DNA of 60,869 nucleotides, taken from positions 1-60,869 of the IMG/VR virus record IMGVR_UViG_3300008113_008492. One strand, given 5' to 3'. The position numbers were made by a program, and so were the translations under genes. Below, one piece after another: positions 1 to 32,948 of the stretch. Below the pieces are notes generated by a model. That model was given only the letters and a program-made list of their open reading frames with translations, did no database searches and had not been told where the DNA came from. Positions within the stretch are counted from its first letter, which is position 1, and every line of letters starts with the position of its first letter. This stretch comes from a virus.

Positions 1-456
1 GTAGTACAAGCAAAAACAGTATCGGATGCAATGCTCACATACAGTAAATTTGTTGAGTTAGGTTACACCCACATTGCATTAAATCATGCTGGTGTGTTTT
101 ATAAAGAATTATATAAGCATCAAAACGAGTTATTAAGTTTAATGACTGGACGTATTAAATTCGTTAATATGTTACCATCATTAAATGGATTTAATAAAAC
201 AATTCACCACCACTTATTAGGTGCTACATTACCTAATGAATTCTCTAGCTACAAAGGTAAAGAATACTTATTTATTAAAACAATCGATACATCTAATCCA
301 GTTATTTACGGTTTAAAACACGGTAAATATCCAGATGAAGTATTGTTAGATAAACCAAAAGAAAAATTAGAAACATTCTTTAATCAGCAATTAACACAAC
401 AGCAGATTTCAGATGTATTACATAACGTCAAACATTTTAGAACACTATTATCATGA
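1..456 (+). CDS. dpdA: DpdA-like DNA (7-deaza)guanine transglycosylase, C-terminal part
   Basis: The frame is open from the first base, so the true start lies upstream; an internal ATG at 31 is unlikely to be the start. The visible part of about 150 residues has an HHHLLG segment followed by a TIDTSNP segment, the pattern I know from the C-terminal half of phage tRNA-guanine-transglycosylase-like DpdA proteins. These exchange guanine in DNA for preQ0 or a derivative. Identification rests on these motifs and on the adjoining queD, queC and queE genes. The last codons overlap queD by 4 nt (ATGA). The catalytic N-terminal part is outside the window. Confidence 0.72.
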   Translation, partial: VVQAKTVSDAMLTYSKFVELGYTHIALNHAGVFYKELYKHQNELLSLMTGRIKFVNMLPSLNGFNKTIHHHLLGATLPNEFSSYKGKEYLFIKTIDTSNPVIYGLKHGKYPDEVLLDKPKEKLETFFNQQLTQQQISDVLHNVKHFRTLLS

Positions 457-932
457 TTACATTTAAATCATCAAAATTATTTGATGGATTCTCTACTGTA
501 TTTAGACAATGGAGAGCAGAAGGAACCCATTGTAGGTTCTTACATGGATATGCCATATCCTTTAAAGTAGATTTTGAAGGAGATTTAGACGAACGCAATT
601 GGGTATGGGATTTCGGTGGTATGAAACGTGCTAATGGCAATATCGATGGAATGAATCCAAAACAGTGGTTCGATTACTTATTAGATCATACTACAATTAT
701 TTCCGAAGACGATCCGTATTTAGAACAATTCAAACAAATGGGCGAAGATGGGATCATCCAGTTACGAATTTTACCTTACGTTGGCGCTGAACGTTTTGCT
801 GAATATCTATTTAAAAAGATCAATGAATTCGTTCAAGACGAAACTCATTACCGAGTTAGGGTATCTAAAGTAGAAGTATTTGAAAATGGCCGTAATTCAG
901 CTTCATACGAAGAGGAATACATGCCTATTTAA
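453..932 (+). CDS. queD: QueD-like 6-carboxy-5,6,7,8-tetrahydropterin synthase
   Basis: This 159-residue protein belongs to the 6-pyruvoyl-tetrahydropterin synthase family. QueD turns dihydroneopterin triphosphate into carboxy-tetrahydropterin, the second step to preQ0. Visible landmarks are Cys27 in HCRFLHGY, a DFG segment after about residue 54, LLDH near 75-80 and a VEVFEN segment near 143, matching the catalytic Cys, Asp/His and Glu of the family. Oddly, the first zinc histidine of the FSAAH motif is replaced (FSTVF) and the HGH motif reads HGY (Tyr33), so two of three usual zinc ligands are missing. The gene starts inside the dpdA stop and is followed by a phage promoter motif. Confidence 0.8.
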   Translation: MITFKSSKLFDGFSTVFRQWRAEGTHCRFLHGYAISFKVDFEGDLDERNWVWDFGGMKRANGNIDGMNPKQWFDYLLDHTTIISEDDPYLEQFKQMGEDGIIQLRILPYVGAERFAEYLFKKINEFVQDETHYRVRVSKVEVFENGRNSASYEEEYMPI

Positions 933-949
933 TTTCTTAATTAAATTTA
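933..949 (+). promoter_or_regulatory. phage promoter-like 17-nt motif
   Basis: Copy TTTCTTAATTAAATTTA of the recurrent upstream motif. It ends 29 nt before the ATG at 979 and starts just after the queD stop. Confidence 0.6.
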
Positions 950-978
950 TATTATAAACAATTTAAACAAAATAAGTT

Positions 979-1215
979 ATGATATCAGTATTTGATTACC
1001 TAGGTCGTGCAGGTGGTAAGGAATTATGCGGACGTATAAATCTATATGCTAAAAAAGTAGGTGCTAAATTTGAAAAAATTAGAGACGTTTCTAATCCTAA
1101 ATATACAGGGTTAGTTACTTTGTATGAAGAAGAATTTTTAGATGAGTTCGCTAGATTACATCCTGAAGAAAATTTAGTAAAAAAAAATCGGTTATCGGAA
1201 CTAATCGATCAATAA
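979..1215 (+). CDS. hypothetical protein in the que block
   Basis: This 78-residue soluble protein has no signal peptide or membrane segment and I do not recognise its family. It lies between queD and queC with its own promoter motif upstream, so it heads the queC-queE transcript. A role in 7-deazaguanine metabolism is possible from position only. The ATG follows an AAGTT box that precedes many starts in this genome. Confidence 0.7.
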   Translation: MISVFDYLGRAGGKELCGRINLYAKKVGAKFEKIRDVSNPKYTGLVTLYEEEFLDEFARLHPEENLVKKNRLSELIDQ

Positions 1216-1249
1216 ATTAATACGTTCCAATCTTATATTTTATAATTTT

Positions 1250-2104
1250 ATGTCTAGTACAAAAAAAGCAGTTTTATCATTATCCGGAGGAATGGACTCC
1301 TCAACATTATTACTCCACCTATTAGCTAATGGCTACGAAGTTACAGCATTAGGATTTGATTATGGTCAAAAACATCGTGTTGAATTAGAACGTGCCGCAT
1401 CATTGGTTGAGTATATTAATACAGCTCCAATGCGTGTTACTCATACTGATCAAGCATTTGGTGGATTTGAAGAAGCATATCCTAAAGTAAAACATCAAAT
1501 TATCAAATTAGATGGATTACAAAATTTACTTCATTCAGCATTAGTTACAGGTGGAAACGATGTACCCGAAGGACATTACGAGCAAGACAACATGAAAGAA
1601 ACTGTTGTACCTAATCGTAATAAGATTTTCGCTTCATTAATTCAAGCAGCAGCATTATCAGTAGCAACTAAAGGCGATAAGCAAGAAGTAGCAATTGCAA
1701 TGGGTATTCACGCTGGTGATCATGCTATTTATCCTGATTGCCGTCAAGAATTCCGTGACGCTGATTTTGAAGCATTTAAAGTTGGTAATTGGGATTCTGA
1801 ATTAGTTTATCATTATACTCCATATTTAGAAGGTAATAAATTTACTATTTTAGAAGACGGATTAGCATGTTGTGAAAAATTAGGTTTAAATTTTGATGAA
1901 GTATATAAACGTACTAATACATCATACAAACCTTATCCATCAGGAAATAGCGATTACAAATCAGCTGCATCCGTTGAACGTATCGAAGCATTCATTCGCT
2001 TAGGACGTAAAGATCCAGTTCAATATGAAGATGAAACTGGTGAAGTTAGTTGGGAAGTTGCTAAAGCAGCAGTAGAACAAGTATTAGCTGAATATCAACA
2101 ATAA
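1250..2104 (+). CDS. queC: QueC-like 7-cyano-7-deazaguanine (preQ0) synthase
   Basis: QueC uses ATP and ammonia to convert 7-carboxy-7-deazaguanine to preQ0. The N-terminal PP-loop SGGMDSS (about residues 12-18), the ETVVPNRN segment near 123-130 and YPDCRQEF near 163-170 are clear family signatures. At 284 residues it is longer than common bacterial QueC. The C-terminal zinc site, normally four cysteines ending in CGxCxxC before an ER-EAF segment, is intact in outline (SVERIEAF), but every expected Cys is replaced, mostly by Ser or Ala. Either the zinc site is structurally dispensable here or the enzyme has changed. No glutaminase domain is fused to it. The stop overlaps the next ATG. Confidence 0.88.
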   Translation: MSSTKKAVLSLSGGMDSSTLLLHLLANGYEVTALGFDYGQKHRVELERAASLVEYINTAPMRVTHTDQAFGGFEEAYPKVKHQIIKLDGLQNLLHSALVTGGNDVPEGHYEQDNMKETVVPNRNKIFASLIQAAALSVATKGDKQEVAIAMGIHAGDHAIYPDCRQEFRDADFEAFKVGNWDSELVYHYTPYLEGNKFTILEDGLACCEKLGLNFDEVYKRTNTSYKPYPSGNSDYKSAASVERIEAFIRLGRKDPVQYEDETGEVSWEVAKAAVEQVLAEYQQ

Positions 2105-2244
2105 TGGAGGAAATTAGACACATTATTAGTCATTTGTTAGGATCGTGTGGCGACGCACATCCTAACATTTTATCTGTACTCGCTGGTGATGTGCAGTTTC
2201 TTACTTATATTCAACAATTAATTAAATTAAAATTCAAAATATGA
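2104..2244 (+). CDS. small hypothetical protein
   Basis: This 46-codon ORF begins with an ATG that shares one base with the queC stop codon and ends in an ATGA overlap with the next gene. Tight coupling on both sides is the main evidence that it is real. The product is mildly hydrophobic in its middle and has no family I recognise. Confidence 0.55.
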   Translation: MEEIRHIISHLLGSCGDAHPNILSVLAGDVQFLTYIQQLIKLKFKI

Positions 2245-2474
2245 AGTGTATCAAAAAAGGAGATGAAATCCGTAGAGTATCAGACCAAGATGCTGATTTA
2301 AAAGTAAAAGTACATGGATGGTCATTCGTTCCTAAAGCCGAATGGAAAACCAAAGTTCGAGATGCAAATAAGAAAACCGTTGAGGTAGATATTAATGCAG
2401 AAGTAGTTGTAGATAAAAAATTAGCTAAACGTCAAAAATTAAAAGAAAAACAAAATGGCACTAGATTATACTAA
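2241..2474 (+). CDS. lysine-rich hypothetical protein
   Basis: This 77-residue basic protein has a Lys-rich C-terminus (KLAKRQKLKEK). It is coupled to the genes on either side: ATGA overlap upstream and a 20-nt overlap with queE downstream. I recognise no domain. Its place between queC and queE suggests co-expression with preQ0 synthesis but gives no function. Confidence 0.65.
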   Translation: MKCIKKGDEIRRVSDQDADLKVKVHGWSFVPKAEWKTKVRDANKKTVEVDINAEVVVDKKLAKRQKLKEKQNGTRLY

Positions 2475-3231
2475 AAATCAACCAGTAATTGAAGTATATC
2501 GTTGCATTCAGACTGAAGGATCATTAGCAGGCAAACCACACATTATTGTACGTACTACAGGATGTACCCATCGCTGCTACTTTGGTGAAGGTGGGTGGTG
2601 TGATTCATGGTACACATCAATTCATCCAGAGAAGGGCAAATATACAATGCAGGATATTAAAGATTTCCTCATGAAGAATTGGGATATTACTCATTTAATG
2701 ATTACTGGTGGTGGTCCGTCAATGCATCCTGAATTAGTAAATGAATTAGTTAATGTATTCAAACATATCCATTCGGCTAAAAAAGGTATTGTAACTATTG
2801 AAACCGAAGGTTCACATATGCTGCATACTGATTTACCAATTGATGTTATCTCATTATCACCTAAATTTACAAATTCAATTCCTGTACTTGGTGTTGAAAC
2901 ACCACAAGGTAAAATTGTAGATCAAAAGATGATTGATCAACATAACAAATACCGAATGAATTATCCCGCAATTCATCAATTATTATCATATCATAAGAAC
3001 TATCATTTTAAACCAGTATGGGATGGTTCGAAAGAAACATTAGATGAAATTGAAGCATTCCGTAAGCGTTTTAATATACCAAAATCTAAAACATGGATTA
3101 TGCCTGCTGGAGATACTCGTGAAGAATTAATTAAAATGTATCCAATAGTATTAGATTACTGTACAGAAAATTCATATAATTTTTCAGGACGAGATCACAT
3201 CATTGCATACGGTGACAAGAGAGAGGTTTAG
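2455..3231 (+). CDS. queE: QueE-like 7-carboxy-7-deazaguanine synthase (radical SAM)
   Basis: QueE rearranges carboxy-tetrahydropterin to 7-carboxy-7-deazaguanine with a [4Fe-4S] cluster and S-adenosylmethionine. Near the N-terminus are IQTEGSLAGKP and the cluster cysteines Cys37, Cys41 and Cys49, giving CX3CX7C rather than the classic CX3CX2C; the extra residues are FGEGG. ITGGGPSMHPEL near residue 82 matches the SAM-binding GGEP region. Length (258) is slightly above the bacterial norm. With FolE, QueD and QueC it completes the route to preQ0. The stop codon lies within a perfect inverted repeat. Confidence 0.85.
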   Translation: MALDYTKNQPVIEVYRCIQTEGSLAGKPHIIVRTTGCTHRCYFGEGGWCDSWYTSIHPEKGKYTMQDIKDFLMKNWDITHLMITGGGPSMHPELVNELVNVFKHIHSAKKGIVTIETEGSHMLHTDLPIDVISLSPKFTNSIPVLGVETPQGKIVDQKMIDQHNKYRMNYPAIHQLLSYHKNYHFKPVWDGSKETLDEIEAFRKRFNIPKSKTWIMPAGDTREELIKMYPIVLDYCTENSYNFSGRDHIIAYGDKREV

Positions 3232-3672: not shown

Positions 3673-3960
3673 ATGTACCAAGTAGGACAACGCATAGTTA
3701 CAGATTTAGGTGTTGGTGATATATTACGAGTAGAACACGAGAGATACTACGTGTTAATCGATTTTCCCTCCGACAGCACACACTCATATGAAACTTGGCT
3801 TACCGATAGTGATATCCGATATTCATTCGATACTAAAGAAGATTATAGGCGGGTGCCGCCTGAAGATGATAGTAGAATAACCCGATCAATAAAACAACCA
3901 AGAGCAAAAAAACAAAAAACAATCTGGAGACATGGAAGATACACACAAGTTTGGAGGTAA
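3673..3960 (+). CDS. hypothetical protein with a basic tail
   Basis: This 95-residue protein begins YQVGQRIVTDLGVGDILRVE, suggesting a small SH3-like or KOW-like beta barrel (inference only), and ends in a Lys/Arg-rich tail. It lies 3 nt after the preceding stop and overlaps the next gene by 29 nt. I do not recognise a family. Confidence 0.7.
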   Translation: MYQVGQRIVTDLGVGDILRVEHERYYVLIDFPSDSTHSYETWLTDSDIRYSFDTKEDYRRVPPEDDSRITRSIKQPRAKKQKTIWRHGRYTQVWR

Positions 3961-4309
3961 AACAATAGCAATAATATCATTTATTGTAGGAGCCGCATTA
4001 TATCAATTAATTTTTTGGACGTTAATACACCCAACTGATACACCCTCAGAACCAATAATTACAGAATGTAAAGCTGATTCATTACAGAATGTAATTGGAA
4101 ATTTACAATCTGATATTAAAATATTAGAAGATGGGTTTGATTCTAGAGAACATCGATATGAAGATGTATTATTTGAATATGAGTTAGGATTATCTTATTT
4201 AAAAGATTACCACCCAACAGCATATAAAGATTTCCATAGAATAGTTGGAATGAGAGAAAGATACTCACATGAACTTGAAAGAGAAAATATTAAACATTTA
4301 AAATTATAA
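3932..4309 (+). CDS. single-pass membrane protein with helical tail
   Basis: The product has 125 residues, with a transmembrane helix at about residues 11-30 (IAIISFIVGAALYQLIFW) and then a long charged, probably coiled-coil periplasmic or cytoplasmic domain. The topology resembles an inner-membrane spanin, but no lysin is adjacent, so that is only a possibility. It overlaps the upstream gene by 29 nt and ends 2 nt before heme oxygenase. Confidence 0.7.
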   Translation: MEDTHKFGGKTIAIISFIVGAALYQLIFWTLIHPTDTPSEPIITECKADSLQNVIGNLQSDIKILEDGFDSREHRYEDVLFEYELGLSYLKDYHPTAYKDFHRIVGMRERYSHELERENIKHLKL

Positions 4310-4311
4310 AA

Positions 4312-4833
4312 ATGGGATTAAGAGAAGCAACAGCTGAACTACACAGTAAAGCAGAAAAAATGGAATTCAACCAACGAATGTTTCGTGGTGAATTATCTAC
4401 AGACGAATATGTAAAATACTTATATCAGCAATTATCTATATTTGATGCTATTGAATCAGAGGAATTACCTCACCCATCATTAACTCGTACAGATAAAATA
4501 AAGGAAGATATACTTGAATTAAAATCAGTAATGGATATAATGAATATTCTTCCAATCACAACAGCATATTCTTATTATTTATCTACTTTAACTAAGGAAG
4601 AACGTCTACCTCACGTTTATTTACATTATTTAGCATTGGCTTATGGTGGACAAATGATGAAAGATCAAACACCAGGTTTAGGTAGAATGTATGATTTTGA
4701 AAACATGCAAGAAGCTATTGGTACTATTAGAGCAATTCAGCAAGATGAATGGGCAGACGAAGTAAATAAAGGATTTGAATATATCATTACTATCTTAGAT
4801 GAATTACAAAATAATACTGGATCAAACAGCTAA
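4312..4833 (+). CDS. heme oxygenase (biliverdin-forming)
   Basis: Heme oxygenase opens heme to biliverdin, CO and iron using ferredoxin-type electrons. The 173-residue protein starts LREATAELHSKAE, placing the proximal heme ligand at His11. It carries the distal-helix signature YGGQMMKDQTPG with Gly112-Gly113-Gln114. The all-helical length is slightly below the 200+ of bacterial enzymes. The next gene overlaps by 35 nt and is a bilin reductase, exactly the partner that uses biliverdin, which makes the call much stronger. Phage homologues are known in cyanophages and in uncultured marine viruses; the surrounding genes here suggest a Bacteroidota host. Confidence 0.85.
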   Translation: MGLREATAELHSKAEKMEFNQRMFRGELSTDEYVKYLYQQLSIFDAIESEELPHPSLTRTDKIKEDILELKSVMDIMNILPITTAYSYYLSTLTKEERLPHVYLHYLALAYGGQMMKDQTPGLGRMYDFENMQEAIGTIRAIQQDEWADEVNKGFEYIITILDELQNNTGSNS

Positions 4834-5416
4834 TATTTTAGAAAATATTCTGATTGAAGATAATGGATTTGAAATCGAAACAGAAGATTTCGGGTGGGAA
4901 AATACCCGATATGTTTCTGATTCATTTCGTATAGCTCATATTGAACGCTATAGTGATAGAGCACTAGAGGTACTACATTTTACAGCATTTCCACAATTGA
5001 ATTTTGCAGATCCAATATTTGGATTTGATATTATATGCACTAATGAAAAACCATTAGCAGCATTTATTGATTTATCTCCAGTTACATACTCACCAGATAA
5101 ATTCATCGATTACGAATTTAAAACACCATATCCATTACCTGAATGGGCCAATAATATATTTTCAGAACACGCAGTGGCAATTAGGCCCGGTGTAGAAGAA
5201 ATGGTTCGATTATGTAATGAAGCAACTGATTTATTTGAGTCATATACTAAAACAGTAGGTCTGTTTGCTGATCCTAAATTAGTAGTTGAAGCACAAAATT
5301 ATTATTGCGAACAACAATCTAAAAACGAACGTACATATAATGTATTAAAAGCTAAATTAGGTGAAGAACGCGCTAAATATTTTATGGACACAGTTTTATT
5401 TTCAAAAATCCAATAA
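4799..5416 (+). CDS. ferredoxin-dependent bilin reductase (PcyA/PebS/PcyX family)
   Basis: These enzymes reduce biliverdin to coloured bilins using ferredoxin. The 205-residue product has the family core: RIAHIER, a VLHFTAFP segment with His60, then DPIFGFDII (Asp77) and AAFIDLSPV (Asp91), which corresponds to the catalytic Asp of PcyA and PebS. It is shorter than PcyA and close to the compact phage enzymes. Which bilin is made (phycoerythrobilin, phycocyanobilin or another) cannot be read from sequence alone. It overlaps heme oxygenase by 35 nt and thyA by one base, so it is translated as part of one operon. Confidence 0.85.
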   Translation: MNYKIILDQTANILENILIEDNGFEIETEDFGWENTRYVSDSFRIAHIERYSDRALEVLHFTAFPQLNFADPIFGFDIICTNEKPLAAFIDLSPVTYSPDKFIDYEFKTPYPLPEWANNIFSEHAVAIRPGVEEMVRLCNEATDLFESYTKTVGLFADPKLVVEAQNYYCEQQSKNERTYNVLKAKLGEERAKYFMDTVLFSKIQ

Positions 5417-6396
5417 TGAATAACATAGACAAACATTATCAAGCATTATTACAAGACATTTTAGATAACGGTGTAGAAAAATCCGATAGAACTGGTACTG
5501 GTACTATTTCAGTATTTAGTAGACAGATTCGCCATAAAATGTCTGAAGGATTTCCATTGCTGACTACTAAAAAGATGGCGTGGAAATCAATCGTAGCTGA
5601 ATTATTGTGGTTTCTACGTGGTGATACTAATATTAAATTTCTATTGGATTATGATTGTCACATTTGGAATGGTGATGCATATAAAAATTATGTATCAAAA
5701 CAAAATGAATTAAATCTACTTACATATTCAAAAGACCACTTTATTAAGTACATTAAAACCGATGAAGAGTTTGCTAAAAAGTGGGGTGATTTAGGACCAA
5801 TCTATGGTAAGCAATGGAGACAATGGCAAGGGTGGATGGATATGGATGGTAATGAGAAAGGTTCATTGTGGTATGATCAAATTCTACAATTAGTTCATTC
5901 ACTTAGAACTAATCCAGATAGCAGACGATTGATGGTATCAGCATGGAATGTAGCAGAATTAGATCAAATGGTACTTCCACCATGTCATTATGGGTTTCAA
6001 TGTTATGTTAGAGAAGGTAAATACCTTTCATTAATGTGGAACCAACGTTCAGTAGATACATTTTTAGGATTACCATTTAACATTGCTTCATATGCTTTAT
6101 TATTAGAAATCATAGCAAAAGAAGTTGGTATGATACCTGATGAATTGATTGGTAATTTAGGTGATGTTCATTTATATTTAAATCATATTGAACAAGCTAA
6201 AATGCAAATACTACGCAAACCATTTAAATTACCTAAAGTAAATATTACTGAACGTAATTGGTATCAGCATGAATTAGTTAAAGAACGATTAGGACCAAAA
6301 ACATTTAATGACAAAATATTATCGTATCGCCCAAACTGCTTCGAATTAATTGGATACGAATCACATTCAGGAATTAAAGCACCATTATCGAATTAA
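5416..6396 (+). CDS. thyA: thymidylate synthase (ThyA type)
   Basis: The enzyme makes dTMP from dUMP and methylene-tetrahydrofolate. The 326-residue protein has the dUMP-phosphate arginine in SDRTGTGT, the catalytic Cys190 in LPPCHYGFQCYV, the SRRLMVSAWN segment and LPFNIASYALL. The Asn in the last segment is the residue that selects dUMP; dCMP hydroxymethylases have Asp here, so ordinary dTMP synthesis is the best reading. It follows the bilin reductase with a one-base overlap. It would boost thymidine supply for replication of an AT-rich genome. Confidence 0.95.
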   Translation: MNNIDKHYQALLQDILDNGVEKSDRTGTGTISVFSRQIRHKMSEGFPLLTTKKMAWKSIVAELLWFLRGDTNIKFLLDYDCHIWNGDAYKNYVSKQNELNLLTYSKDHFIKYIKTDEEFAKKWGDLGPIYGKQWRQWQGWMDMDGNEKGSLWYDQILQLVHSLRTNPDSRRLMVSAWNVAELDQMVLPPCHYGFQCYVREGKYLSLMWNQRSVDTFLGLPFNIASYALLLEIIAKEVGMIPDELIGNLGDVHLYLNHIEQAKMQILRKPFKLPKVNITERNWYQHELVKERLGPKTFNDKILSYRPNCFELIGYESHSGIKAPLSN

Positions 6397-9996: not shown

Positions 9997-10344
9997 ATGC
10001 TAGATTTAAAAGAATTACTTATAATGCTCGGTTTAGCCGTAGGTGGTCCGATGCCTAATCAAGACATGACATTTTACAGACAAAAATTGAGCAATGAGAT
10101 GATAATGGAGAAAAAGCTTCAATCAGAAATTAAAGCGCTTGAATATCGTAAGATGTGGGATGATGTAAACAAAACAGAAAAAACTGATTTTGCATCTAGT
10201 TGGTTAAAAGAGAAAAAAACCGATGATAAATTAACCCAACATAAAAAAGATCTTACTCAAACTAAGAAAAAAATCAAAGTGCTCAAACAAATCATTGAAA
10301 AAGATTCGTTAGAGCACATCAAAATAGAACCTATGGTATTATAG
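9997..10344 (+). CDS. coiled-coil hypothetical protein
   Basis: This 115-residue protein has a short hydrophobic start and then a long Lys/Glu-rich heptad-like helix from about residue 25 to 105. I recognise no family. It closes the operon, followed by a terminator hairpin at 10361. Confidence 0.65.
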   Translation: MLDLKELLIMLGLAVGGPMPNQDMTFYRQKLSNEMIMEKKLQSEIKALEYRKMWDDVNKTEKTDFASSWLKEKKTDDKLTQHKKDLTQTKKKIKVLKQIIEKDSLEHIKIEPMVL

Positions 10345-10358
10345 GTATAACTATTTTA

Positions 10359-10520
10359 CTAGACTGATAAGTCTTTATTAATATCTAGCAACCCGTTTCT
10401 TCCACCAGCATGTCTGCGGTTAGAGATGGGTTGTTTTGATTTCCGTTCAACATTGTCAAATTTGACTAACACCGCGCTAAATAATGTACTAATTAATAAT
10501 GAGATTGCTAATAATGGCAT
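10359..10520 (-). CDS. possible minus-strand small membrane protein
   Basis: Reading leftward from an ATG at 10520, a 53-codon frame encodes a hydrophobic N-terminus (LLAISLLISTLFSAVLV) followed by a basic tail and ends at 10359. It would be the only leftward gene in the window. It lies opposite a terminator and an extended hairpin, so the frame could be incidental. No family is recognised. Confidence 0.25.
   Translation of the reverse strand: MPLLAISLLISTLFSAVLVKFDNVERKSKQPISNRRHAGGRNGLLDINKDLSV
10361..10374 (+). terminator. terminator-like hairpin
   Basis: AGACT-GATA-AGTCT followed by TTATTAATAT. The tail also resembles a degenerate copy of the phage promoter motif. Confidence 0.45.
10389..10437 (+). 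ncRNA. extended hairpin ending in TTTT
   Basis: CAACCC...GGGTTG encloses TTTCT/AGAGA and ACC(A)GC/GCGGT stems around an ATGTCT loop, then TTTT. It is a strong folded RNA element or terminator. The rest of the gap (10438-10644) holds no convincing + strand gene: an ORF at 10426-10617 has no family features and overlaps this stem. Confidence 0.4.
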
Positions 10521-10644
10521 TTTATTTTATATTTTGTTCGATAATACGTATATAACACTTCTACGAAAACGACAAATTGCCATAATGTTCGTTGAAAAAT
10601 CCACACTACGCCTATAATATTCAAATTTGGTTTTGTAGTATATA

Positions 10645-10655
10645 CTATATTTATG
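10645..10655 (+). promoter_or_regulatory. ATATTTAT promoter-like element
   Basis: CTATATTTATG lies 18 nt before the ATG at 10674. It contains the in-frame ATG at 10653, which argues against that ATG as the gene start. It precedes the whole exported-protein block. Confidence 0.4.
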
Positions 10656-10673
10656 GGGGAACTAGTTCTATCT

Positions 10674-11165
10674 ATGAAGAAAGTAATTGCTATATTAATA
10701 TTAGTTTTGGCATCATTCATTAGCCAAGCGCAAACTCCTAAGTTATTTCTACATAATGTAGAAAATAAAATCCAAATTGGTAAATTAGCAGGTAACCGCA
10801 ATTTAGCATTTGGTGTTAAAAATATAGTTGAAGAACTATTATCCGAAAATTATTCATTAGTACCTACTAAAGACGCTGCTGATTATTCAGTACAAGTCGA
10901 CATCGTATTTTTAGATGTTGAACAAGCAAATGTAAGTATAGGTATAATGCATCAAGATAAACAATCAGTCGTTATTAGTATGGTTGGAAAACTATTAAAA
11001 GGCGATAAAGTTATAAAAACAAAAACAGCAACAGAAAAATCATCCGAAGTATCAATGTCTACTTTAGTTATTTCTGAAGCCGGTGGTTTTAATCAAACAT
11101 CATTATCAAATGCGTTGAAGAAAGCATCGGTTTCATTAACAACTAAATTATTAGACAAAATATGA
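10674..11165 (+). CDS. secreted protein of unknown function
   Basis: The start at 10674 gives a clean signal peptide (KKVIAILILVLASFISQAQ) and mature protein of about 144 residues; the alternative ATG at 10653 would bury it. The mature part alternates strands and helices (GVKNIVEELLSENYSLVP, then DYSVQVDIVFLDVE). This is reminiscent of lipoprotein or CsgG-like periplasmic folds, similar in style to the protein at 14655, but not enough for a family call. It heads a run of exported proteins and overlaps the next gene by 4 nt. Confidence 0.75.
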   Translation: MKKVIAILILVLASFISQAQTPKLFLHNVENKIQIGKLAGNRNLAFGVKNIVEELLSENYSLVPTKDAADYSVQVDIVFLDVEQANVSIGIMHQDKQSVVISMVGKLLKGDKVIKTKTATEKSSEVSMSTLVISEAGGFNQTSLSNALKKASVSLTTKLLDKI

Positions 11166-12964
11166 AAAAATTATTATTCTTACTATTATCATTAGTAAGT
11201 TTAACTGCGTTCGCTCAAGAACCAAGAGTAAGATTATCCGATGACTCTACTAAAGTAGATGTAAATGGTGGTGTAATTGACAAAGGTGATGAATTTATCG
11301 TTAATGTTCAATTAAATGGTAATGGAAATACAACAGCTCGTTCATTGTATTTTGATTTTGAATTTAATAATGCTGCATTTGATTTTATTAATGTAAACCA
11401 TACTGGAACTGGTGGTAATGGTGGTGTACTTCCTGCAGGTTCATCAATTACAATAAGTAATTACACATACCCTGGATATTCATATGCTGGGGCTGCAAAT
11501 AACACTACAGCAAATGGTAATACAAACTATAATAATGCTAATTATAATTATACTCAAGGTGGTCCTAAAACCATTATTCGTGTTTATCTAAACTGGGCTA
11601 CAAACTCACCATTACCTTATAATGCATATAGTGATTTATTAAAATTACGTTTTAGATTAAAAACAACAGCAGTGGGTGATGCATGGGATCCAATCAAAAT
11701 GAACTTTGCAGCATCATTTAACCAAAACGGCTCATCAGGTGCTTGTCTAAATGAGATTCCATTAACTACAGTAATTACTCAAAATCCAGACGCTAAAAAA
11801 TTCGTTAAAGCTGTATTAGATTTAAATGGAAATATCAATCCAGCTTATGTTAAAGTTGGTTTCTTAAAAGCAGATAATACAGGTCCTTTATTTAACGTAA
11901 CAGCAAATGGTACTGTAAATATTATTGATTCATTACTAACCGGTAATACTCAATATAAAATTATGACATTTATTAATATGGATCAGTTACCAGGCATAAT
12001 GAATGCCGCCGTATCCGTATCTGACTATACAACAGCAGAAGCTGAATTCATATCTCAAAACTTAGATAGAACATATAAAAATATTAGTATATTAACAGGT
12101 ATGGGATATTGGGCAGCGGATGTTAATAGAAGTAATGTTTTTGATGGTGGTGATTTAACTCAATTATATGCACAAGCTGTTGGTGTTAACCAATTACTTG
12201 TATTACCAGCAAATTATGTACAAGGAAGTGGTGGACATATGAGTGTACCAACATTTAAAGCAGCTCACTTTGATGCATTAACACCTTCAAATTGGGGAAC
12301 AGATGCAGCTAAAACATCTCAAGCAGTGTTTGAATATACTACAGTACCAACTCCAGGAACTCCACCAACAATTAACATTAAGTATGTGCTGCCTGGTGAT
12401 GTAAACCGTTCACATTCATCCCAAGTAGTTGTTAATGGAGCTGTAAGAACTAACGCTATACCTTCATTAAATAAAAGCATAGCTAATAAATTATATGCTG
12501 CTGGTCCTAGTATGAATCGCACTGAAGTATTTATCAATACTCCTCAAAATGTAGCTTCAATTGATGTAAATTTAAAAAATGCAACTGTAACTTCAAATAC
12601 AATTGAAATACCAGTAAGCGTAACAGGAAATGATATTGCTGCATTGCAATTTGAATTTAAATACGATGCATCAAAACTTAAATTCGAATCAATGAAATCT
12701 GAAATACCAGCTGATTGGTATGTGTTTGCTAACTCAATAGAAGGGCAAGTTAAATTTGGAGCAATTGATCAGAAATTAAAAACTCCAATATCAGGTACTA
12801 CAATTCCATTTAAATTAAAATTTACAGCTCTACAAAACGGATTAGACATTAATACATTAATTAAAGTTACTCCTGCAATAGATGCTGCTAACTCTAAAGG
12901 AGCTCAATTAGGAATTAACTTGAACACAGATAAAATTAAATTAACAGGATATAACAACTTTTAA
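11162..12964 (+). CDS. large secreted cohesin/dockerin-like protein
   Basis: This 600-residue protein has a signal peptide ending FAQ. Residues about 25-170 form a cohesin-like beta domain (FIVNVQLNGNG, SLYFDFEF). In the middle are dockerin-like calcium loops: ADVNRSNVFDGGDL near 320 and GDVNRSHS near 412. From about 465 a second cohesin-like domain follows (IEIPVSVTGNDIAALQFEF). Such modules mediate protein-protein adhesion in extracellular complexes. I see no type IX secretion C-terminal signal. It may decorate the cell surface or the virion; that is inference. Confidence 0.7.
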   Translation: MKKLLFLLLSLVSLTAFAQEPRVRLSDDSTKVDVNGGVIDKGDEFIVNVQLNGNGNTTARSLYFDFEFNNAAFDFINVNHTGTGGNGGVLPAGSSITISNYTYPGYSYAGAANNTTANGNTNYNNANYNYTQGGPKTIIRVYLNWATNSPLPYNAYSDLLKLRFRLKTTAVGDAWDPIKMNFAASFNQNGSSGACLNEIPLTTVITQNPDAKKFVKAVLDLNGNINPAYVKVGFLKADNTGPLFNVTANGTVNIIDSLLTGNTQYKIMTFINMDQLPGIMNAAVSVSDYTTAEAEFISQNLDRTYKNISILTGMGYWAADVNRSNVFDGGDLTQLYAQAVGVNQLLVLPANYVQGSGGHMSVPTFKAAHFDALTPSNWGTDAAKTSQAVFEYTTVPTPGTPPTINIKYVLPGDVNRSHSSQVVVNGAVRTNAIPSLNKSIANKLYAAGPSMNRTEVFINTPQNVASIDVNLKNATVTSNTIEIPVSVTGNDIAALQFEFKYDASKLKFESMKSEIPADWYVFANSIEGQVKFGAIDQKLKTPISGTTIPFKLKFTALQNGLDINTLIKVTPAIDAANSKGAQLGINLNTDKIKLTGYNNF

Positions 12965-20401: not shown

Positions 20402-21112
20402 ATGTGCGAAATTAGCAATTTAGAAATTACCAATTCAGGTAATGCAAATGGTATCTCACTCCATTTACAACAAATCATTGAAACCGAAGGCAAAGAGCGC
20501 TCTCTAACCGTAGAAGAAAAACAAACTATTATCGATAATGCAACTGTTGCATATGGTAATTTCTTAGACGCATTAGGTGTTGATTGGCGTAATGATCCTA
20601 ATTCCTCCAACACTCCAAAACGTGTAGCTAAAGCATACGTTAATGATTTATGGAGAGGTCGTTACGAAGTATTAGGCGATGTTACAGCATTCCCATCAGA
20701 CGGTTATAATGGTATTGTATTAGAACGCGATATTCCAGTAATATCAATGTGTTCTCACCACCACCAAGCAATTTTAGGTAAATGTCATATTGCATATGTA
20801 CCTGGTCCTGAATCAAAGGTAATCGGATTATCAAAATTAAATCGTGTCGTTGAACATTTCTCACGTAGAGGTGCTATCCAAGAACAGTTAACGATGGCTA
20901 TTCATAATGCTATGGATAAATTAATTGAAGGTAATGAAGGTATTATGGTAATGATGCATGCAACTCATAACTGTGTATCATGTCGTGGAGTTAAGCATAT
21001 GGGTGCTAGTATGATGACGTCTGAAGTATCAGGTGTATTTGCTGACCACGCTAAAACAGCTAAACAAGAAGTATTAGAAATGTTAAAATTTAACCTACAA
21101 GCATATATTTAA
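20402..21112 (+). CDS. folE: GTP cyclohydrolase I
   Basis: FolE converts GTP to dihydroneopterin triphosphate, the first step towards preQ0 and folates. 236 residues, with NTPKRVAKAY near 66-75, the zinc site CSHHH near 117-121 plus HNCVSCRG near 190-197, GLSKLNRVVEHFSRRGAIQE, and a typical C-terminal helix. All expected zinc and catalytic residues are present, unlike QueD and QueC in this genome. It lies 17 kb from the other que genes under its own promoter. The MazG-like gene overlaps its stop by a base. Confidence 0.93.
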   Translation: MCEISNLEITNSGNANGISLHLQQIIETEGKERSLTVEEKQTIIDNATVAYGNFLDALGVDWRNDPNSSNTPKRVAKAYVNDLWRGRYEVLGDVTAFPSDGYNGIVLERDIPVISMCSHHHQAILGKCHIAYVPGPESKVIGLSKLNRVVEHFSRRGAIQEQLTMAIHNAMDKLIEGNEGIMVMMHATHNCVSCRGVKHMGASMMTSEVSGVFADHAKTAKQEVLEMLKFNLQAYI

Positions 21113-31034: not shown

Positions 31035-31330
31035 TAAAAGCAGTATTCGACAATATCGTCGTTAAAAATGAAGAATCCGGAGAAAAATTCTACGGTTCAA
31101 TTGTAGTACCAGATATGGGTAAGGAAATGCCCCACGTTGGAACTATCATTGGTGTAGGTCCAGGTCGCCGCAATGGAGAAGGTAAATTGATTCCATCTAC
31201 ATTTAAAGTAGGTGATAAAGTTATCTTACCTAAAATCGGACCAGTAAGAGTAGAGTATGATGGGGTAGAATACCTCGTTACATCAGAAAATAACGTTTTA
31301 GCATTAATCGAAACAGAAGACAATGAGTAA
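31031..31330 (+). CDS. groES: GroES co-chaperonin
   Basis: 99 residues. The start is (V)FDNIVVKNEESGEKFYGSIVVPD, with the mobile loop near 17-32; GTIIGVGPGRRN, FKVGDKVILPK and an ending VLALIE match bacterial GroES over its full length. It caps the GroEL ring. It is followed by groEL with an 8-nt overlap, the same order as in bacteria. The mobile loop is shorter in hydrophobics than the usual GGI/VL pattern, which could suit the phage GroEL partner. Confidence 0.92.
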   Translation: MIKAVFDNIVVKNEESGEKFYGSIVVPDMGKEMPHVGTIIGVGPGRRNGEGKLIPSTFKVGDKVILPKIGPVRVEYDGVEYLVTSENNVLALIETEDNE

Positions 31331-32948
31331 GCAAATAGTATTTAATCAAGACGCAAAAACCAAATTATTAAAAGGCGTCATCAAATTATCAGATGCAGTT
31401 ACGTGTACATTAGGACCAAATGGTCGTAACGTAATCATCGACAATGAAGGTGATAATCCAATATCAACTAAGGACGGTGTAACAGTTGCTCGTTCTATTG
31501 AATTAGAAAACCCAATTGAAAACATCGGTGCACAACTATTAAAGCAAGCAGCAATCAAAACAGCTGATTTAGCTGGTGATGGTACTACTACAACTACATT
31601 ACTTGCATCAACTATGATTGCAGAAGGATTCAATGCAATTAAAGCAGGATCTAATGCAGTAGAAGTTAAACGTGGTATTGAGCAAGCAACTAAAGAAGTA
31701 ATCGATCAAATTAAAAAGATCTCTAAAGACATTACTTCAGACGAGCAAATCAAACAAGTAGCAGTTATTTCAGCTAATGGTGATGAGGAAATCGGTTCGT
31801 TGATTTCTGAAGCAATGCAAGCAGTAGGTGTAGATGGTGTAGTTACAGTAGAAGAATCTCGTATTGGCGAAACGTCATTAGAGATTGTAGAAGGTATTCA
31901 AATCGATAAAGGATACAAATCATTATATTTCGTTACTAATAACGATACAATGACTGCTACATTAAACAATCCTAAAATTCTATTGTATAATGGCCGTTTA
32001 ACTCAAGTTAAAGAATTGCTACCGCTATTAAATTCATTATCACAATCAAATGATGAATTATTAGTTATTGCTGAAGATATTGATGGTGAAGCGCTATCAA
32101 CATTATTAGTAAATAAAATGCGTGGTATTCTAAAAGCAGCAGTAGTTAAAGCACCTGATTTTGGAGATCGCCGTTTGCATATCTTAGAAGACATTGCTAC
32201 AGTAACAGGCGGGCAAGTTATCTCACCAGAAAAGGGAATGAAGTTGGAGAAATTCAATTCCGATTGGCTAGGTTCGGCTCGTTTAGTTACAGTAGCTAAA
32301 GAAACAACAACAATTGTTGATGGTAAAGGTAATGTTGAGGAAATTGAGCAACGTATTGATGATTTAAAACAACAAATCGACAATGCTAAGTCAATGTTTG
32401 AACGTGAAAAATTACAAGAACGTTTAGGTAAATTATCAGGTGGTGTAGCAGTAATTAATATCGGCGCTCCTACAGAAGTAGAAATGAGAGAGAAAAAGGA
32501 CCGTGTTGATGATGCTTTACACGCAACCAAAGCAGCTCTACAAGAAGGTATCTTACCAGGTGGTGGTGTTGCATTAGTACATGCTCGTCAAGTATTGGCT
32601 AATAAAAAATACGATAATGTTGATTTAGATTTAGGACGTGACATTGTTTACAAAGCATGTACAGCTCCATTCCTTAAAATCTTATCTAACGCAGGTTATG
32701 AAAATTTAGAATCATTTAGTATTGTAAATCGATTAGCTACTGTTGAATCTGATTATGGTTATAATTTAAAAACTAAAATCATTACAGACTTAGTTGAAGA
32801 AGGTATTATTGATCCTACTAAAGTTACTCGTTTAGCATTAGAAAACGCAGTATCAGTTGCAGGTACAATTTTGATTACAGAATCGATTGTATACAATAAA
32901 CCTGAAGAAAAGAAACCACAACAACCAGATATGGGAATGTATGAATAA
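31323..32948 (+). CDS. groEL: GroEL chaperonin
   Basis: 541 residues, full length. It has TLGPNGRNVIID, DGVTVARSIELENPIENIGAQLL, GDGTTTTTLLAS (nucleotide-binding Asp87 region), the apical domain, and DALHATKAALQEGILPGGGVALV (Asp398 region). The C-terminus is EEKKPQQPDMGMYE rather than a Gly-Gly-Met tail. With its own GroES this could fold phage proteins without host chaperonin. Known phage chaperonins are often divergent single-ring types; this one keeps the full bacterial layout and may derive from a host by transfer. Confidence 0.96.
   Translation: MSKQIVFNQDAKTKLLKGVIKLSDAVTCTLGPNGRNVIIDNEGDNPISTKDGVTVARSIELENPIENIGAQLLKQAAIKTADLAGDGTTTTTLLASTMIAEGFNAIKAGSNAVEVKRGIEQATKEVIDQIKKISKDITSDEQIKQVAVISANGDEEIGSLISEAMQAVGVDGVVTVEESRIGETSLEIVEGIQIDKGYKSLYFVTNNDTMTATLNNPKILLYNGRLTQVKELLPLLNSLSQSNDELLVIAEDIDGEALSTLLVNKMRGILKAAVVKAPDFGDRRLHILEDIATVTGGQVISPEKGMKLEKFNSDWLGSARLVTVAKETTTIVDGKGNVEEIEQRIDDLKQQIDNAKSMFEREKLQERLGKLSGGVAVINIGAPTEVEMREKKDRVDDALHATKAALQEGILPGGGVALVHARQVLANKKYDNVDLDLGRDIVYKACTAPFLKILSNAGYENLESFSIVNRLATVESDYGYNLKTKIITDLVEEGIIDPTKVTRLALENAVSVAGTILITESIVYNKPEEKKPQQPDMGMYE

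Follow-up and report, generated by a model that had tools for sequence, protein, structure and literature searches.

The heme oxygenase–bilin reductase gene pair and its surroundings

The window, by which we mean the whole 60,869-nucleotide stretch of viral DNA analysed here (some 60 kb, probably part of a larger genome), carries on its plus strand a gene for a heme oxygenase (HO; 4312..4833, 173 aa) and a gene for a PcyA-type ferredoxin-dependent bilin reductase (FDBR; 4799..5416, 205 aa), the 3′ end of the first overlapping the 5′ end of the second by 35 nt (4799..4833, plus strand, from the ORF coordinates). The HO reading frame matches Pfam PF01126 (E 2.2e-13; 51 bits, cut-off 23), and its AlphaFold model (pLDDT 94) has the HO fold, with rat HO-1 as best match (Z 21 over 171 residues). 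The FDBR reading frame matches PF05996 (E 2.5e-23; 83.4 bits, cut-off 31), and its model (pLDDT 96) has the PcyA fold, PcyA structures being the best PDB matches (TM 0.81-0.86); phmmer alignment, residue table and phylogeny, taken up below, bear on the same assignment. A sequence-only reading of this DNA had proposed overlapping HO and FDBR genes with His11 and a GGQ motif in the one and FGFD, IDLSP and Asp91 in the other, and reading frames, both Pfam families and both predicted folds place every one of these features where it was claimed.

Upstream, 2 nt before the HO gene, lies a gene with no assigned function (3932..4309, +) that adjoins the pair in the closest relatives too, as seen by neighbourhood comparison; downstream, the FDBR stop and the start of a thymidylate synthase gene (thyA; 5416..6396, +; PF00303) have one base in common. 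Comparison of the closest relatives gives a dN/dS of 0.04-0.12 for FDBR and 0.2-0.39 for HO; both values being well below 1, purifying selection keeps both genes. The middle of HO (residues 45-98; 4444-4605) diverges far faster than the gene ends among close relatives, with dN/dS up to 0.78, which suggests relaxed or mosaic evolution. Protein identities of 95% for FDBR but 66-75% for HO had suggested a recombination sweep of FDBR; we rejected this, since FDBR dS is ordinary (0.23-0.39) and the fast-evolving part is the middle of HO.

To what extent is the pair kept as a unit? Separate FDBR and HO scans gathered 83 viral contigs, not all of them independent, and all 83 contain the FDBR; HO lies just upstream in 81, the remaining two contigs ending at that point, and none of the 83 has an HO without an FDBR beside it. 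Of the 81 relative pairs, 75 have overlapping reading frames, and HO and FDBR pairwise distances correlate (r 0.78, p 0.001). The surroundings are less constant. Genes flanking the pair vary from lineage to lineage, and thyA follows it in the window and in L001-L004, but in neither L005 nor most other lineages. The operon with thymidylate synthase that had been read from the window is thus real there and in those four relatives, while the conserved unit is HO-FDBR alone and the ThyA linkage is lineage-specific. One relative, L073, has an intact HO and, around 10001-10592, an FDBR match over residues 14-205 whose longest ORF is 121 aa; this reads as a decayed or frameshifted FDBR copy.

Several other genes of the relatives deserve mention. 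NifU (PF01592) and IscA/HesB (PF01521) genes occur in HO-FDBR phages (L044:1284-1694 and L074:1301-1630, with L011, L041-L046 and L049 in the same group), and in basal Glu-type phages (L065:10678-12087, with relatives L060, L061, L063 and L067) the pair is followed by a gene for a complete sigma-70 factor (regions 1.2 to 4). Glutamyl-tRNA reductase (hemA/GtrR) was found in 3 of 50 relative contigs: in L048 directly downstream of HO-FDBR (10586-11551; 245.7 bits, cut-off 209.6), and in the L058 (G007:C1:160141-160563) and L086 (G443:C1:3411-3830) contigs. In the literature searched we found no report of a phage glutamyl-tRNA reductase beside HO-FDBR; the gene is the C5-pathway counterpart of the phage valaS described previously (PMC11480375), and suggests that these phages sometimes feed the head of the pathway. 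The window itself also encodes, at 11162-12964, a 600-aa secreted-looking protein that matches the Cohesin domain (PF00963) and opens with a signal-peptide-like segment, the last residues of which are AFAQ.

A PcyA-type reductase and an oxygenase with altered distal residues

The catalytic residues of Synechocystis PcyA are Glu76, His88 and Asp105 (PMC10151467), and in our phmmer alignment and residue table they correspond to Glu49, His60 and Asp77 of the window FDBR, Asp77 lying within FGFD and Asp91 within IDLSP. The active-site comparison proposed in the sequence-only reading therefore bears it out, His60 and Asp77 aligning with PcyA and Asp91 standing where expected, and adds Glu49, which that reading had missed. 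Asp55 is the residue specific to PcyX (PMC11480375); we set its column through an alignment to 5OWG, in which the chain numbers run eight ahead of the native ones (native Met at 9, native residue 55 at 63). At the PcyA Glu76 column, every phage member of the window group has Glu and every member grouping with EBK42635 and Mosig has Asp, while at the His88 position PebS has Asn and the window FDBR His.

The maximum-likelihood tree of 77 FDBR sequences, which contains neither CB_2 (Crystal_bog_pmoC-phage_2) nor alphaproteobacterial PcyA nor pre-PcyA, places the window inside a 49-member phage clade (support 99/96) and outside the Asp-type PcyX clade (100/99). These two clades unite (100/99) to the exclusion of PcyA from cyanobacteria and cyanophages, and the Peb enzymes lie far outside (100/100), separating the window from cyanophage PebS. 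Basal among the Glu-type FDBRs are L012, L060 and L067, the union of all Glu-type sequences being weakly supported (70/29). PcyX identity is thus ruled out for the window FDBR by Glu49 and tree position, and PebS identity by the tree (100/100) and the His at the His88 position: the enzyme, though near PcyX, is neither PcyX nor PebS and belongs to a clade of its own. Of the FDBR models, the NCBI PcyA equivalog fits best, at 101 bits; because this lies below its cut-off of 206, we call the enzyme PcyA-type and not PcyA. Database searches returned an uncultured phage PcyA entry, A0A6J5KK88 (35% identical), and, from plasmids, only PebB-like matches; an FDBR-alignment pattern scan across GTDB yielded no bacterial relative, the scan needing exact conserved peptides such that distant ones may escape.

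Since the window FDBR has Glu49 as in PcyA, and not the Asp of PcyX, the predicted product is phycocyanobilin rather than the phycoerythrobilin of PcyX and PebS; absence of Asp55 has likewise been linked to phycocyanobilin formation in CB_2 (PMC11480375). Judged from these residues, phycocyanobilin is reasonably likely to be the main product.

By score, predicted fold and proximal His the window HO is classed as a PF01126 heme oxygenase, and it appears to lack the canonical distal network. It keeps the proximal His11 (human His25), Glu15, Glu48, His101, Gly112-Gly113 (within GGQ, 112-114) and Arg140, but has Phe44, His105, Ala108 and Leu109 for human Tyr58, Arg136, Gly139 and Asp140, equivalences read from alignments anchored on the proximal stretch, which has no gaps, and on the HxYxxYLxxxxGGQ helix, not from coordinate superposition. 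The change follows the type of partner reductase. Among HOs paired with Glu-type FDBRs, Asp140 is missing from 64 of 64 (replaced by Leu, Ile, Met, Pro or Trp), Phe stands at the Tyr58 position in 57 of 64, and Arg136 is also mostly lost, with Asn in most at the column where the window has His105; of the 14 HOs paired with Asp-type (PcyX) FDBRs, by contrast, 11 retain both Tyr58 and Asp140.

Canonical HOs need a distal hydrogen-bond network (PMC5623701, PMC7948506), and the protein might accordingly have ceased to be a standard heme oxygenase, acting instead as a peroxidase, as an enzyme with altered products or proton path, or as a heme carrier, with the FDBR working on the altered product or on host biliverdin. 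The coupled loss just described favours this reading, as do the human HO-1 mutants D140A, which becomes a peroxidase, and G139A, which likewise perturbs the distal network (PMC5623701). Yet a plant HO without the same Asp140 and Arg136 is active via an alternative network (PMC7948506); the proximal His, Glu, GG pair and Arg140 are invariant; and strict pairing with a biliverdin reductase points to biliverdin as the product. We regard an altered function as improbable. Whichever holds, this HO clade is a natural counterpart of the human peroxidase mutants, and could show either how HO chemistry proceeds without the distal Asp or what other uses the fold has.

A probable Bacteroidota host

Comparison with 49 kb of Flavobacterium phage immuto (vB_FspM_immuto) gave matches for roughly two dozen ORFs of the window at 23-64% identity, among them GroEL (31323..32948, +; 60%), QueC (1250..2104, +; 62%), FolE (64%) and QueE (55%). 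The two phages have in common QueC/D/E, FolE, ThyA, GroES/EL, glycosyltransferases and DUF932; unlike in the window, HO and FDBR were not detected in immuto. The QueD-like, QueC, QueE-like and FolE genes of the window (453-3231 and 20402-21112) make up a 7-deazaguanine set as in immuto, which also has DpdA, and the window phage likely modifies its DNA. GroEL searched against GTDB gave only 47-51% matches from mixed phyla, uninformative on the host.

A second line of evidence comes from translation signals. Bacteroidota mRNAs, including those of Flavobacterium, are without Shine-Dalgarno (SD) sequences (PMC6847099), and SD-like motifs precede 2 of 77 ORFs in the window (2.3 expected) and 2 of 63 in immuto (2.4 expected), against 17 of 65 in Mel-JY01 (4.1 expected) and 7 of 15 in Mosig (1.4 expected). 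By FDBR clade, observed/expected ratios are 0 to 1.9 for subgroups of the 49-member clade, 2.9 for the basal Glu-type and 3.4 for the PcyX-type. Searches of 49 relatives for photosystem (Photo_RC) and phycobilisome or phycobiliprotein genes found none. The immuto gene set, the missing SD signal and the lack of photosynthesis genes together indicate that the window virus probably infects a non-photosynthetic member of the Bacteroidota, the kind of host that had been suspected from the sequence. For the other members of the 49-member clade the SD statistic is the basis: because its subgroups lie near the SD background, it is probably a clade of Bacteroidota phages. Mel-JY01 (L028, PP395634.1), a phage recorded from Microcystis, has part of the group's replication and glycosyltransferase core (29-54% identity).

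A proposed route from heme to a reduced bilin, and its relation to known systems

In the pathway that we propose, HO would open host heme to biliverdin IX-alpha, iron and CO, and the FDBR would carry out a four-electron reduction of biliverdin, most likely to phycocyanobilin. A search of 50 relatives for ferredoxin (Fer2) gave no match, so the electron donor would have to be a host ferredoxin. None of 395 sampled Bacteroidota genomes matched FDBR either, the positive control being detected, so the host would have no such bilin of its own. That the pair forms an active PcyA-type heme-to-reduced-bilin pathway in a Bacteroidota phage we consider likely. The FDBR is retained throughout, which makes it probable that selection acts on the reduced bilin itself or on the full removal of heme and biliverdin, and not on iron alone.

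What the phage gains is harder to say, pigment genes in phages of non-photosynthetic bacteria having been called enigmatic (PMC11480375), and any specific physiological benefit, the antioxidant role raised in the sequence-only reading included, is doubtful. Heme breakdown might chiefly supply iron to iron-sulfur enzymes, 2-oxoglutarate-dependent enzymes or ribonucleotide reductase, with the FDBR doing no more than removing biliverdin. Iron supply has been proposed for the marine cassette (PMC11480375), and the L041-L049 group has NifU and IscA close to the pair; those genes are confined to that one subgroup, however, and HO alone would suffice for the purpose, yet it is not seen apart from the FDBR. 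Iron as the main gain is accordingly improbable, about as much so as an altered oxygenase.

Phycocyanobilin might instead displace biliverdin in a host bacteriophytochrome and so alter light signalling, a role related to the phytochrome supply suggested in the sequence-only reading. A PHY domain scored above the cut-off in 24 of 296 sampled Bacteroidota genomes, leaving most without a phytochrome, and a search of seven relative phage contigs, among the largest, gave no PHY match. Biliverdin-binding phytochromes use an N-terminal Cys and phycocyanobilin-binding ones a GAF Cys; the four Bacteroidota phytochromes inspected were all of the biliverdin type, with the N-terminal Cys present and the GAF Cys missing. 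Although the CB_2 PcyA is able to supply a phytochrome chromophore (PMC11480375), the phytochrome proposal is weakened by these proteins, and photoreceptor tuning strikes us as distinctly unlikely. A cyanobacterial host, whose phycobilisomes the pair would serve as in cyanophages, is scarcely credible: the isolate whose DNA polymerase comes closest is the Microcystis phage Mel-JY01 (34% identity), but no photosystem or phycobiliprotein genes turned up in 49 relatives, Mel-JY01 has the SD signal that the window lacks, and in the stretches compared the window has many more genes in common with immuto.

Returning to the heme-to-bilin pathway, a bolder version of it, which we offer as a doubtful possibility, is that Bacteroidota phages evolved an exclusive module in which an HO without the distal network and a dedicated PcyA-type reductase make a host-foreign bilin for a non-photosynthetic role; the stripped HO would then use another oxygen or proton path, or form a different heme product. 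The purpose of a pair kept amid changing surroundings across a widespread Bacteroidota-phage clade is open to experiment, given that there are phages of Flavobacterium strains in culture.

One of the nearest known systems is that of CB_2, which like the window is of freshwater origin and has a phage HO with an FDBR lacking the PcyX Asp55, and whose vHemO and vPcyA make biliverdin and then phycocyanobilin in vitro (PMC11480375). Unlike the window, CB_2 is a pmoC-carrying, presumably methanotroph phage with valaS, the pair and valaS forming a broken cassette (PMC11480375). In 50 relatives of the window valaS had no match, nor did pmoC, whose search found none in its control either and so is uninformative. 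The HemO-PcyX system of pelagiphage Mosig EXVC030M and EBK42635 (PDB 5OWG) likewise has adjacent HO and FDBR genes in a heterotroph's phage, with an FDBR of a related clade, but differs in having Asp where the window has Glu49, a phycoerythrobilin product, SD-using phages, partner HOs that mostly keep Tyr58 and Asp140, and 33% (FDBR) and 24% (HO) identity to the window.

Cyanobacterial and cyanophage PcyA (Synechocystis 2D1E, P-SSM4, P-RSM4) have the same catalytic Glu, His and Asp and the same fold (TM ~0.84), yet they are 26-33% identical to the window enzyme, form a separate clade, belong to photosynthetic hosts and are not paired with a window-type HO. The pre-PcyAs of heterotrophic bacteria (PMC10151467) resemble the window enzyme in being FDBRs, often with HO neighbours, outside photosynthetic organisms, but are without Glu76 and His88, both present in the window FDBR; their gene clusters hold bilin-binding globins, whereas a search of 49 window relatives gave no protein of the phycobilisome family. 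A phage HO-FDBR cassette, in phages of heterotrophs included, is therefore already known from Mosig and CB_2. New, as far as we have checked, are the clade of Bacteroidota phages, the large group that its Glu-type FDBRs form on their own, and the coupled loss of the distal network in their partner HOs.
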